Assembly (NCBI RefSeq): GCF_002803065.1 | Contig: NZ_NNBL01000033.1 | Coordinates: 1 to 64,000 of the forward strand | Origin: Streptomyces sp. CB01635 | GTDB lineage: Bacteria; Actinomycetota; Actinomycetes; Streptomycetales; Streptomycetaceae | Length of the DNA stretch: 64,000 nucleotides | Direction: 5' to 3' | In this document: piece by piece, positions 15,345 through 20,243 of the stretch | Numbering within the stretch: the stretch's first letter is position 1 | Layout: every line of letters begins with the position of its first letter | Program-made: the position numbers and the translations under genes | Notes under the pieces: model-generated | Told to the model about the DNA's origin: nothing | The model's input: only the letters and a program-made list of their open reading frames with translations | The model's database searches: none

Positions 15345-16661
15345 GTGAGCAGCGAGAACTCGGCGGACGGCAACGGAACGGGCGAGCACGCGGCGGACGC
15401 CGGTGACGGCGGGCAGGTGTGGGACGTCGTCGTGGTGGGCGCCGGTCCCGCCGGCGCCTCGGCCGCCTACGCGGCAGCGGTCGCCGGACGCAGCGTCCTC
15501 CTTCTGGAGAAAGCGGAACTGCCCCGGTACAAGACGTGCGGCGGCGGCATCATCGGTCCTTCCAGGGACGCGCTGCCGCCGGGATTCGAGCTGCCGTTCC
15601 GGGACCGGATCGACGCGGTGACGTTCTCCCTCGACGGGAAGTTCACCCGCACCCGGCGCTCTCGCCACATGCTCTTCGGCCTGGTGAACCGCGCCGACTT
15701 CGACCATCAGCTCGTCGAGCACGCCGAGAAGGCGGGCGCCGAGCTGCGCACCGGGACGACGGTCTCGCGGGTAGAGCAGCACGGCGCTGCCGTGCCCGAC
15801 CGGCGCACGGTCGCCGTGATCCTCCAGGACGGCGAGACCATCCTGGCGCGCGCCGTCGTCGGGGCGGACGGCAGTGCCAGCCGCATAGGGGCTCATGTCG
15901 GGGTGAAGCTCGACCAGGTCGACCTGGGTCTGGAGGCGGAGATCCCCGTTCCCGAGACGGTCGCCGAGGACTGGAAGGGCCGCGTCCTCATCGACTGGGG
16001 CCCGATGCCCGGGAGTTACGGCTGGGTCTTCCCCAAGGGGGACACCCTGACCGTCGGCGTGATCTCGGCACGGGGCGAGGGCGCCGCCACGAAGCGGTAC
16101 CTGGAGGACTTCATTGCCCGGCTCGGCCTCGCCGGCTTCGAACCGTCGGTCTCCTCCGGCCATCTGACGCGCTGCCGTGCCGACGACTCACCGCTGTCGC
16201 GCGGTCGCGTACTCGTGTGTGGTGACGCGGCGGGTCTCCTCGAACCGTGGACCCGTGAGGGCATCTCGTTCGCGCTGCGGTCGGGTCGTCTCGCGGGGGA
16301 GTGGGCCGTCCGCGTCTCGGAGGCGCACGACGCGGTGGACGCGCGCCGGCAGGCTCTGAACTACGCGTTCGCCGTCAAGGCGGGGCTCGGTGTCGAGATG
16401 AGCGTCGGCAGGCGGATGCTGACCGTCTTCGAGCGCAGGCCCGGCGTGCTGCACGCGGCGATCACCGGGTTCCGGCCCGCGTGGAAGGCGTTCGCCCGCA
16501 TCACCCGCGGATCGACGACGCTGGGCGAGATCGTCAGGACGTATCCGATGGCGGGTCGCGTCCTGAGCCGTCTGGACCGGCCGGCATCCGCGGCCGCGTC
16601 CTCGGCTGATCCGTCGGCCGTGCCGACGGTCGACGATCCGGAGGCTACTTCTCGATCGTGA
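15345..16661 (+). CDS. Geranylgeranyl-reductase family FAD-dependent oxidoreductase
   Basis: A 438-residue flavoprotein. After an acidic leader the Rossmann motif VVGAGPAGASA (31-40) starts the FAD domain. CGGGIIGP, GADGSASRIG and VCGDAAGLLEPWTREGI are the geranylgeranyl-reductase/ChlP-family signatures. These enzymes reduce isoprenoid double bonds (menaquinone tail, archaeal-type lipids, carotenoid precursors). No isoprenoid gene is adjacent, so the substrate is open; menaquinone saturation is reasonable in Streptomyces. GTG 15345 follows GGGAGCAG. Its last 17 bases overlap the convergent DDN-type gene. Confidence 0.88.
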   Translation: MSSENSADGNGTGEHAADAGDGGQVWDVVVVGAGPAGASAAYAAAVAGRSVLLLEKAELPRYKTCGGGIIGPSRDALPPGFELPFRDRIDAVTFSLDGKFTRTRRSRHMLFGLVNRADFDHQLVEHAEKAGAELRTGTTVSRVEQHGAAVPDRRTVAVILQDGETILARAVVGADGSASRIGAHVGVKLDQVDLGLEAEIPVPETVAEDWKGRVLIDWGPMPGSYGWVFPKGDTLTVGVISARGEGAATKRYLEDFIARLGLAGFEPSVSSGHLTRCRADDSPLSRGRVLVCGDAAGLLEPWTREGISFALRSGRLAGEWAVRVSEAHDAVDARRQALNYAFAVKAGLGVEMSVGRRMLTVFERRPGVLHAAITGFRPAWKAFARITRGSTTLGEIVRTYPMAGRVLSRLDRPASAAASSADPSAVPTVDDPEATSRS

Positions 16662-17127
16662 TGAGGAAGACCGGGTGGTCCGGCGCGGCCGCGGTCAGCT
16701 CCTCGTCGGTCGACTTGGCAGTGATGCCCTGGAAGTACTGGTTGACCTCCCAGCCCCACTTCTCCAGGTAGCTGCGCAGGATCGGCAGCTTCTCGTTGTC
16801 GGGCACCTCGGTCGCGGTGAACGTACGGACCTTGCGCCCGACGCGCAGCTCGCCGGCCCCGGCGACGCGCATGTTGCGCACCCACTGGGAGTGCCCGCGG
16901 GCCGAGACGATGTACTGCGCGTCCTTGTACGTGTGCGGGTTGACCGGGATGCGCTGCATCTGACCGCTCTTACGGCCGCGCACGGAGAGCTCGGCGGACC
17001 CCATCAGGCTGACGCCGTGGCGCGCGAGCCAGCCGATCACGCCGTTCAGCCGGACGTTCAGGCGGCTGCCCTTCAGGTAGTAGGGGCTGGGGGAGGAGGG
17101 CGAGCCGGACTGGGCGTTCGCGGTCAT
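16645..17127 (-). CDS. Nitroreductase-family deazaflavin (F420)-dependent oxidoreductase, DDN type
   Basis: A 160-residue split-barrel protein of the Ddn/AclJ family. The SVRGRKSGQMQRIPVNPH segment binds the F420 phosphate tail in characterised members, and YIVSARGHSQWVRNMR and the RSYLEKWGWEVNQYF tail are typical. It probably reduces quinones or xenobiotics with F420H2. ATG 17127 follows AGGAGAACCCC. It is divergent from a TetR regulator, and its upstream region holds two related palindromes, so it is probably a TetR target induced by a toxic or redox-active compound. Confidence 0.88.
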   Translation of the reverse strand: MTANAQSGSPSSPSPYYLKGSRLNVRLNGVIGWLARHGVSLMGSAELSVRGRKSGQMQRIPVNPHTYKDAQYIVSARGHSQWVRNMRVAGAGELRVGRKVRTFTATEVPDNEKLPILRSYLEKWGWEVNQYFQGITAKSTDEELTAAAPDHPVFLITIEK

Positions 17128-17190: not shown

Positions 17191-17209
17191 GCGAGAGCAC
17201 TGCTCTCGC
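17191..17209. promoter_or_regulatory. TetR-type operator O1 (perfect 19-bp palindrome)
   Basis: GCGAGAGCA-C-TGCTCTCGC is a perfect 9-1-9 inverted repeat, 64 bases upstream of the DDN-type start, in the divergent spacer with the TetR gene. Its size and symmetry fit a TetR dimer site. Confidence 0.7.
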
Positions 17210-17243
17210 TTGAGATCAGTGTGCACGAGATCGGCGATCCAAA

Positions 17244-17262
17244 GCAAGAGCGGTGCTCTCTT
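17244..17262. promoter_or_regulatory. TetR-type operator O2 (imperfect copy of O1)
   Basis: A 19-bp sequence (GCAAGAGCG-G-TGCTCTCTT) matches the O1 palindrome at 7 of 9 positions in each arm, 53 bases from O1. It is probably a second binding site of the same regulator. Confidence 0.55.
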
Positions 17263-17277
17263 TTCTGGTCGCCGCGG

Positions 17278-17372
17278 CAGAGTGCGCCGCTCGCCACTGA
17301 GTGCACTGCTCCCAAATGAGTGCACCGATCCATAACGCGTGCATCGATCCGGAACGTGTGCACTGCTCCGAA
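17278..17372. repeat. Tandem 19-bp repeats (five units) abutting the tetR promoter
   Basis: GTGCAC or a variant (GTGCGC, GTGCAT) recurs at 17282, 17301, 17320, 17339 and 17358, exactly 19 bases apart, each followed by a C/T-G-C/A-T-C core (GCTC or GATCC). The unit length equals that of operator O1, and the unit at 17297-17315 shares GAG-GCACTGCTC with O1. The array ends 8 bases before a GACACT -10 (17380-17385), which in turn lies 6 bases before the TetR ATG. It is best read as a string of degenerate operators. Confidence 0.65.
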
Positions 17373-17391
17373 ATCGTGGGACACTGCCCGT

Positions 17392-18144
17392 ATGAGCACC
17401 ACACGAGGAGCCAGGGCCAGGGCACGGGAAGAAGTCACCGCCGCCATCAAGGACGAGGCCCGCAGACAGCTCGCGGCCGAGGGCGCCGCCAAGCTGTCCC
17501 TGCGCGCCGTCGCCCGCGAGCTGGGCATGGTCTCCTCGGCGCTCTACCGCTACTTCCCCAGCCGCGACGACCTCCTGACGGCGCTCATCATCGACGCGTA
17601 CGACTCCGTCGGTGAGGCGGCCGAGCGGGCGGACGCCGCCCTGCTCAAGAAGGCGGCGAAGAGCAGCGACAAGGCGAAGACCTCCGACAGCAGGGCCGAG
17701 GCGATCGCACCCGTGCGCCGCTGGGTCGCCGTCAGCGAAGCCGTCCGCGCCTGGGCGCTGGCCCACCCGCACGAGTACGCGCTCATCTTCGGCTCGCCCG
17801 TACCCGGATACAGCGCGCCGATGACAACCGTCCCGGCCGCGTCGCGCGTCGGGCTGCTGTTCTTCAGCATCGTCCGCGACGCCCACCAGGGCCGCGGGAT
17901 CGCCGAGCCGCCGCTCCCCGAGGAGCTGCGGCCCGAGGCCGAGCGGCTCGGCGCCGACCTGGCCCCCGACCTGCCGCCCGCGACGGTGGCCGCGCTCGTG
18001 GCCGCCTGGGCGCAGCTGTTCGGCCTGATCGGCTTCGAGCTGTTCGGCCAGTTCAACCGGGTCGTGGAGGACCGTGCCACCTTCTTCACGCACGCCGCGA
18101 CACAGCTCGCCCACGGCGTGGGCCTGGTGCTGCCCCGGGAATGA
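17392..18144 (+). CDS. TetR family transcriptional regulator
   Basis: A 250-residue TetR regulator. The HTH (LSLRAVARELGMVSSALYRYFPSRDDLL, about 36-63) is typical, followed by a TetR_C_13-like ligand domain (WRRWVAVSEAVRAWALAHPHEYALIFGSPVPGY-type segment). Compared with relatives it carries a Lys/Asp/Ser-rich insert near residue 85-100. It is divergent from the DDN-type reductase, and the spacer holds two palindromes and five tandem repeats, suggesting strong autoregulation and control of the reductase. GACACT at 17380-17385 suggests a leaderless transcript starting at the ATG. Confidence 0.9.
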   Translation: MSTTRGARARAREEVTAAIKDEARRQLAAEGAAKLSLRAVARELGMVSSALYRYFPSRDDLLTALIIDAYDSVGEAAERADAALLKKAAKSSDKAKTSDSRAEAIAPVRRWVAVSEAVRAWALAHPHEYALIFGSPVPGYSAPMTTVPAASRVGLLFFSIVRDAHQGRGIAEPPLPEELRPEAERLGADLAPDLPPATVAALVAAWAQLFGLIGFELFGQFNRVVEDRATFFTHAATQLAHGVGLVLPRE

Positions 18145-18288: not shown

Positions 18289-19581
18289 ATGGATGAGCAG
18301 CACGTACGCGGGGCCGGCGGCCCGCCCCGGACCTGGGCGGGTCCGCCGCACCTCAGGCGCTACGGGCCGCCCTGGACGGCGACCGGTGCCGCCCGGCGAG
18401 GCCACTACGGGCCGCCCTGGTGGGGTGCCTCGGGCCAGGGGCCGCGCTGGCCCTGGCGGTCCACCGTCCTGATCACCGCGTTCGTCCTCGTCGGCTCGAC
18501 CTTCGCGGCGCACGCCCAGACCGGTCGCGCCGGCCTCGACGTGTTCGCCCGCGTGCTGCTGCTCGCGAGTGGCGTTCTCCTGCTGTGGCGTCAGCGGTAC
18601 CCGGTCCTCGTGGCCTTCGGCACGGCGGCCTGCGCGACGGTCTACCTCGGCGCGGGCTACGCGTACGGGCCGGTCTTCATCACCGTGGCCGTGGGCTGTT
18701 ACGCCGCGATCGTCGCGGGGCACCGCAGAGCCGCGTGGGCGGCGGTCGGCATGTTCTGGGTGGGGCATGTCCTCGTGGCGCACTGGCTGTACGCGTATCT
18801 GCCGCCGTCGGGGGACGATGCCGCGTCCTGGGGGCAGGAGGGTTTCATCGCCGCGTGGGTCCTGGCGATCGTCGCCTTCTCCGAGCTGGTCAAAACGCGT
18901 CGCGAGCAGTGGGCGAAGGAGCGCGCCGAGCGGGAGAAGGCCGCCGGGCGACGCGCGGACGAGGAGCGTCTGCGGATCGCGCGGGAGCTGCACGACGTGC
19001 TCGCGCACTCCATCTCGGTCATCAACGTCCAGGCGGGCGTGGGTCTGGCGCTGCTCGACTCCGACCCCGAGCAGGCCCGTACCGCCCTCACCACCATCAA
19101 GTCCGCGAGCAAGGAGGCGCTGGGCGAGGTCCGCCAGGTCCTCGACACCCTCAGGACCCCGGGTGACGCGCCGCGCGCCCCCGCCCCAGGTCTCGACCGG
19201 CTCCTGGAACTCGTGGAGCAGGCGGCGAGCGCGGGCCTCACCGTCGACATCGACACGGAAGGATCCCGCACCGCGCTGCCGCCCGGCGCCGACCTCGCCG
19301 CGTTCCGCATCGTGCAGGAGGCGCTCACCAACGTCGTACGGCACTCGGAGTCGCGCAACGCGCGCGTGGAGGTGCGGTACTCGGGGACCGCGCTGTCCCT
19401 GCGCATCGACGACGACGGGCCGGCGAGCCATGAGGCGGCAGGTGGCAGCGGGAACGGGCTTGCGGGGATGCGTGAGCGGGCCGCCGCACTGGGTGGCACG
19501 ATCGAGGCGGGACCGCGGCCCGACGGCGGTTTCCGGGTGCTCGCCGAACTGCCGTTCACGCCGACGGAGGAGAACCGTTGA
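18289..19581 (+). CDS. Sensor histidine kinase, NarL/DesK-type (HisKA_3)
   Basis: A 430-residue membrane sensor kinase. A Gly/Pro/Trp-rich cytoplasmic leader (1-56) with repeated YGPPW motifs precedes several membrane helices (about 57-200). The HisKA_3 dimerisation helix carries the phospho-acceptor H235 in RELHDVLAHS, and the HATPase_c domain has N-box EALTNVVRHS and a GNGLAGM G-box. It forms an operon with the response regulator, with a 4-base overlap. The stimulus is unknown; the intramembrane sensor type often detects envelope stress. TAGCGT (18276-18281) lies 7 bases before the ATG, consistent with leaderless mRNA. Confidence 0.92.
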   Translation: MDEQHVRGAGGPPRTWAGPPHLRRYGPPWTATGAARRGHYGPPWWGASGQGPRWPWRSTVLITAFVLVGSTFAAHAQTGRAGLDVFARVLLLASGVLLLWRQRYPVLVAFGTAACATVYLGAGYAYGPVFITVAVGCYAAIVAGHRRAAWAAVGMFWVGHVLVAHWLYAYLPPSGDDAASWGQEGFIAAWVLAIVAFSELVKTRREQWAKERAEREKAAGRRADEERLRIARELHDVLAHSISVINVQAGVGLALLDSDPEQARTALTTIKSASKEALGEVRQVLDTLRTPGDAPRAPAPGLDRLLELVEQAASAGLTVDIDTEGSRTALPPGADLAAFRIVQEALTNVVRHSESRNARVEVRYSGTALSLRIDDDGPASHEAAGGSGNGLAGMRERAAALGGTIEAGPRPDGGFRVLAELPFTPTEENR

Positions 19582-20243
19582 TCCGCGTACTGCTCGCCGA
19601 CGACCAGTCGCTCGTCCGCGCCGGATTCCGGGCGCTGCTCGACGCGCAGAGCGACATCGAGGTCGCGGGGGAGGCATCCGACGGCGACGAGGCGGTGCGG
19701 CTCGTACGCGAACTGCGGCCCGACGTCGTCCTGATGGACATCCGCATGCCGGTCCTCGACGGGCTCGCCGCGACCCGCCGCATCAGCGACGACGCCGCGC
19801 TGGAAAGCGTGAAGGTCGTCATGCTGACCACCTTCGAACTGGACGAGTACGTCTTCGAGGCGATCCGCGCCGGAGCGTCCGGGTTCCTCGTCAAGGACAC
19901 CGAGCCCGAGGAACTGCTGCGTGCCGTAAGGGCGGTGGTGCACGGGGACGCGCTGCTCTCGCCGGGGGTGACCCGCCGTCTGATCGCCGAGTTCGCGGCA
20001 CGCTCCAAGGAGCCTGCGGCCGCCGGGTCGCTCGGGCAGCTCACCGAGCGCGAGCGTGAGGTGATGGCGCTGGTCGGCATCGGCCTGTCGAACGAGGAGA
20101 TCGCCCGCCGTCTCGTCGTCAGCCCGCTCACCGCGAAGACACATGTGAGCCGCACGATGGTGAAGCTCGGCGCGCGCGACCGGGCCCAACTGGTCGTGCT
20201 CGCCTACGAGTCGGGCCTCGTACGGCCCGGCTGGCTCGGCTGA
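19578..20243 (+). CDS. Response regulator, NarL/LuxR family
   Basis: A 221-residue regulator with an N-terminal receiver (acidic DD at 8-9, phosphorylated D54 in VVLMDIRMP, K106 in LVKDTEP) and a C-terminal GerE/LuxR-type HTH (LTEREREVMALVGIGLSNEEIARRL, about 153-178). The TTG start at 19578 overlaps the kinase stop (TTGA), the usual coupling. It is the cognate partner of the kinase just upstream and the most likely protein to bind the palindrome at 18209-18232. Confidence 0.93.
   Translation: MIRVLLADDQSLVRAGFRALLDAQSDIEVAGEASDGDEAVRLVRELRPDVVLMDIRMPVLDGLAATRRISDDAALESVKVVMLTTFELDEYVFEAIRAGASGFLVKDTEPEELLRAVRAVVHGDALLSPGVTRRLIAEFAARSKEPAAAGSLGQLTEREREVMALVGIGLSNEEIARRLVVSPLTAKTHVSRTMVKLGARDRAQLVVLAYESGLVRPGWLG

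Follow-up and report, generated by a model that had tools for sequence, protein, structure and literature searches.

Constant 19-base spacing and variable number of operator-like sites beside a TetR-family gene in Streptomyces suggest a naturally adjustable genetic switch

Genes and operator-like sites at the locus

The window analysed here, a stretch of 64,000 nucleotides from Streptomyces sp. CB01635, contains a divergent gene pair with a repeat-rich spacer. On the minus strand lies a gene (16645-17127) whose product resembles F420H2-dependent (deazaflavin) nitroreductases and quinone reductases (PF04075, E=7.5e-10; TIGR00026 above cutoff); its F420H2_quin_red/TIGR00026 domain would make it a DDN-type F420-dependent reductase, and it is the presumed target of the regulator encoded on the plus strand (17392-18144). 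This regulator belongs to the TetR family by its PF00440 and PF13305 domains, both above the gathering scores (TetR_N, 5e-12; TetR_C_33, 9.6e-25), an assignment with which the candidate operators in the spacer to the divergent target gene, palindromes A and B, would agree. Its closest solved relatives are Rv1816 (5d1r, 4.5e-33) and SCO4313 (2oi8, 1.3e-26), and a close relationship to EthR was not found, none of the 44 matches to solved proteins being named EthR. The DNA-binding end of the regulator is conserved at 0.94, against 0.78 for the remainder, which is what a fixed operator would need. A match to it at E<=1e-60 is present in 210 of 296 genomes of the genus, and the divergent reductase accompanies it in all 130 Streptomyces loci read.

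The original prediction had placed two palindromes and five tandem 19-bp repeats between the reductase and its regulator, and this arrangement is borne out. Direct reading of the sequence confirms a perfect 9-1-9 palindrome, A (17191-17209, centre 17200), and an imperfect copy, B (17244-17262, centre 17253), a strong candidate operator whose core is near-invariant in on-lattice loci and which serves as the fixed anchor of the lattice described below. Tandem Repeats Finder recovers the five units at 17280-17374 (period 19, 5.0 copies, 73% match), and a repeat finder reports a 36-nt repeat in four copies at spacings of 19, 19, and 19. All on the plus strand, the units are unit 1 at 17280-17298 (centre 17287; half-sites 5/5 and 5/5), unit 2 at 17299-17317 (centre 17306), unit 3 at 17318-17336 (centre 17325), unit 4 at 17337-17355 (centre 17344), and unit 5, the last, at 17356-17374 (centre 17363), over the expected tetR -35 region; half-site matching agrees with Tandem Repeats Finder in each case.

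Two further sites had escaped the original prediction. One, site C (17227-17241, centre 17234; half-sites 5/5 and 5/5), is an operator-like dyad 19 bp from B on the reductase side. The other is a weak, decayed unit in register with B (17265-17279, centre 17272), with half-sites of 4/5 and 3/5. The half-site consensus GWKCR-N-YGMTC, derived from the intermediate units of relatives, is matched at 10 of 10 positions by all five window units, by A and B, and by site C; at the chance level, both halves reach at least 4/5 at 0.6% of random window positions. The units were thought to form an abutting array: the five units themselves do abut, but unit 1 stands 34 bp (19+15) from B, so that the array is not contiguous throughout. 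It runs as B, the decayed unit, a 15-bp step, and five units, with an identical unit structure in the same-species partner, and is thus a long example of its kind with one 15-bp slip. Steps of 15 bp between dyad-like centres occur twice in the window spacer (17219-17234 and 17272-17287), the second being found in the window's species only. An additional site between A and B, centred at 17219, looked plausible by eye and was dropped, its offset not being operator-like across loci.

Candidate promoters of both genes are interleaved with these sites. On the minus strand, a -35-like TTGCTT (17242-17247) with a strongly conserved TTGC precedes, by 18 bp, a -10-like CACACT (17218-17223) that lies within a gcAcacTg conserved on the reductase strand; in this predicted TTGCTT-18-CACACT promoter, B sits at the -35 edge, site C in the spacer, and A just past (3' of) the predicted start point, near 17211. 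On the plus strand, the putative tetR -10-like hexamer GACACT (17380-17385) ends 6 nt before the ATG at 17392, which is consistent with the leaderless, or probably leaderless, tetR transcript proposed earlier. The last unit, which had been described as ending at the -10, stops 5 bp short of it. A sigma-70 consensus scan found neither promoter, so both assignments are drawn from conservation. A TGG located 15-17 nt ahead of the tetR ATG is conserved in 125/130 loci, and in 128/130, the conserved TGG of TGGCACACTG and the centre of the last unit are 12-16 bp apart.

The array occurs once in the genome. A pattern describing two in-phase units, searched through the 10-Mb genome, gave four exact matches, all in the window array; four other matches carry 2 mismatches each, and the reversed-pattern control gave none. 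Three among the other operator-like places in the genome were considered as regulon members and rejected, as they are located in long ORFs or tRNA-like sequence.

A phase-locked lattice across Streptomyces

The repeats could have been a peculiarity of this genome. Comparison with related Streptomyces shows that the 19-bp lattice is genus-wide and that the number of its units varies, so the array is a conserved, expandable system rather than an isolated oddity. The loci compared were selected by similarity to the window TetR, one genome per species with one same-species exception; they are hence related and their counts non-independent, for which reason changes in unit number were counted on a tree.

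In 130 spacers scanned with an operator PWM seeded with near-perfect palindromes, mostly A and B, the step between successive sites is by far most commonly 19 (133 times), followed by 53 (44 times). Palindrome B was identified through its conserved flank, and in 117/130 loci the distance separating it from the unit closest to the tetR -10 is exactly divisible by 19. As the last unit was picked within a 10-bp range, an exact multiple would be expected by chance about 1 time in 19. The distance is 19 in 54 loci, 38 in 39, 57 in 12, 76 in 3, 95 in 6, and 171 in 1; the 117 also include two at distance 0 (L031 and L124), where B and the last unit were confused and inspection finds one unit. Among the loci at other distances, L081 and L112 prove on inspection to be mis-picked units and L032 was mis-trimmed, leaving as genuinely off-lattice ten long arrays, including those of the window and its same-species partner. 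With the rules fixed, a held-out set of further named loci gave an exact multiple of 19 in 55 of 62. The same clusters, near 33, 52, 71, 90, and 109, emerge if the -10 is taken as anchor without reference to any unit.

Only one unit separates B from the tetR start in nearly half of the loci; a long array is thus dispensable. The lattice also continues from B toward the reductase, where a dyad at B-19 has both halves at 4/5 or better in 60% of the 130 loci; palindrome A is off-lattice, at 52-57 bp from B in 101 of 103 loci measured. Four loci (L043, L064, L038, and L106) have long spacers in which one part is anchored on B, another on tetR, and off-lattice filler separates the two, a picture that growth of the arrays from both ends would give; the L043 spacer contains a short run of CGGCTGT repeats.

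Units as degenerate operators

The intermediate units were predicted to be related to the palindromic operator, and their base preferences uphold this. Scanned with the palindrome-seeded PWM, 102 of 104 intermediate units from 61 loci score best exactly in register. Reflected at the central base, their substitution profile correlates with itself at r=0.83 for shift 0 and at no more than 0.29 for other shifts, a mirror symmetry that extends to a minor variant, T at -3, mirrored by A at +3. By sequence, then, the units are degenerate copies of the A/B-type palindromic operator, each an imperfect dyad. Several of their positions depart from the palindromes, and the scores of some units are weak, so that TetR may fail to occupy the units.

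The cores of units are similar at 0.69 within a locus and 0.66 between loci, the linkers at 0.38 and 0.39, respectively. The likeness of cores, against the much lower likeness of linkers, points to different constraints on the two, and since units are scarcely more similar within a locus than across loci, most units appear to be old and individually maintained. A counterpoise is found in L017, where three identical 19-bp copies follow one another inside a nine-step array; this triplet looks like a recent tandem duplication and may still be unstable.

On a quick, unrooted maximum-likelihood tree of the TetR proteins, unit number changed at least 34 times among the 119 on-lattice loci, as compared to a mean of 52.6 and a minimum of 46 for shuffled labels. 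That there are fewer changes than with shuffled labels, yet at least 34, indicates that unit number is inherited but labile. In other genera of the family, most loci have A and B followed by 0-2 units, and in one of them (L195) B stands directly at the -10. Long arrays thus look like an expansion within Streptomyces, a direction suggested, the tree being unrooted, by the comparison with other genera.

A model for the array and its alternatives

We consider it likely that the spacer is an operator lattice for the adjacent TetR, which gains and loses whole units, is filled cooperatively, and sets regulation by the number of its units. The first TetR dimers would go to A and B, the strong palindromes on either side of the reductase promoter; later ones would settle on the weaker 19-bp units that reach from B to the tetR -35, shutting off tetR too. 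With weak dyads at a fixed 19-bp centre step, neighbouring dimers would probably be in contact, which would make their filling cooperative, and the unit count could accordingly set the steepness or the threshold of regulation and autoregulation, presumably in response to an inducer. As 19 bp correspond to 1.8 helical turns, neighbouring dimers would sit about 70 degrees apart, winding round the helix. Whole 19-bp units are gained and lost, and selection would preserve core and phase. A more far-reaching formulation, that of an evolvable switch in which TetR dimers polymerise on a strict 19-bp lattice from the reductase to the tetR promoter and species tune threshold and steepness by whole units, is one that we advance tentatively, at somewhat less than even chances.

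The most serious alternative holds that, besides A and B, TetR acts only on the unit located at the tetR -35, the remaining units being functionless remnants of duplication. One unit does suffice in nearly half of the loci, a recent duplication exists in L017, and in the window, units 3 and 4 and the site at 17272 are low by the palindrome PWM or the half-site count. Neutral leftovers, however, would not be expected to keep core and phase in intermediate units while their linkers diverge, nor to be hardly more alike within a locus than between loci, and steps other than 19 are rare; on balance we regard this explanation as unlikely. Somewhat less probable still is that the units are independent weak decoys, which would titrate TetR and in this way buffer the response or delay it, with dimers not touching one another. 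Any weak extra sites would titrate, and the units do match more weakly than A and B; yet decoys have no need of a fixed spacing, whereas the 19-bp phase survives at least 34 changes in number. It is chiefly this fixity of phase through many changes that leads us to prefer contacting dimers to independent decoys.

We see little room for a third possibility, in which the units bind another protein, an activator or a nucleoid protein, that sets the 19-bp period. It draws on the unit consensus GTGTGCACTGCTC, which departs from the palindrome in its left half, and on the indirect nature of the case for TetR as the binder of the units; against it, the mirror-symmetric preferences agree with the half-sites of A and B, the departure in the left half peaks in the last unit, at the expected tetR -35, and the array occurs nowhere else in the genome and adjoins tetR at all loci read. 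Finally, although plasmid iterons are typically tandem repeats of about 17-22 bp, a length that the units share, and one terminator-like match falls at B, the notion that the repeats work through RNA or DNA structure, as attenuator, terminator, or iterons, instead of as operators can practically be dismissed, as the array lies 5' of both predicted starts and should be untranscribed, being in neither transcript, which argues against RNA mechanisms, Rfam offers no credible family, and the loci, placed between reductase and regulator instead of being plasmid iterons, lie on chromosomes, many of them in genomes of 7-11 Mb that form a single contig.

Relation to known systems and significance

Several known systems share individual features with the operator lattice favoured here. 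The divergent oxidoreductase neighbour of the mycobacterial TetR-family regulator EthR is ethA. EthR itself is reported to octamerise cooperatively on its operator (Engohang-Ndong 2004, as cited in PMC5895659). Both cases place a TetR-family repressor beside a divergent oxidoreductase gene and line up several dimers in the spacer common to both genes (predicted in the present case), and the site lattice would be compatible with an EthR-like cooperative multimeric operator; the difference is that here a separate, recognisable dyad would serve each predicted dimer, at steps of 19 bp, and that the number of units varies among species. For TetR-family regulators, operators occupied by two dimers are well described, MAB_4384 being one case (PMC5895659). 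MAB_4384 and QacR, the latter another regulator of this two-dimer type, resemble the present system in their palindromic operators and autoregulation, and MAB_4384 also in its divergent layout, but theirs is a single compact operator as opposed to an expandable array. BldC of Streptomyces forms cooperative multimers on direct repeats at sites of varying length (PMC5859096), a likeness that includes the cooperativity presumed here; it is, however, MerR-like and binds asymmetrically, head to tail, to repeats that are not dyads. Contiguous repeats are also seen in the Omega/ParB heptads of pSM19035, whose activity depends on repeat number and contiguity (PMC9499535), although these are 7-bp units bound by a ribbon-helix-helix protein in plasmid partition. 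None of these four kinds of system unites a TetR-family regulator, one dyad per unit, a fixed phase, and a variable number of units. In the open-access literature, we found neither the operator sequence nor a variable phase-locked TetR array; as the subscription literature is mostly uncovered by that search, novelty is provisional.

How operator number and spacing relate to the shape of a response has so far been studied mostly in synthetic constructs. Streptomyces species form a natural series in which regulator, promoters, and kind of target stay the same and phased units number from 1 to about 9, so that one could measure directly how threshold and steepness depend on operator number. If the proposed model is true, the arrays of different species constitute a natural titration series of cooperativity. 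As a cis-regulatory element, the array changes in quantised steps, and its variable site number at a constant 19-base spacing suggests a naturally adjustable genetic switch. It also supplies a ready-made operator for an apparently uncharacterised pair of TetR and F420-reductase, whose regulator occurs in about 70% of the Streptomyces species sampled.

By identity to the window copy, the reductases of the 130 loci fall into two classes, at about 50% and about 60-85%, and at least 22 switches between these classes are counted on the TetR tree; repeated exchange of the target gene, with the operators retained, seems to have taken place. The comparison of unit number with reductase class comprises 5 supported independent pairs. 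Beyond tetR, on the same strand, the translations indicate a histidine kinase-like gene and a response regulator-like gene (18289-20243).
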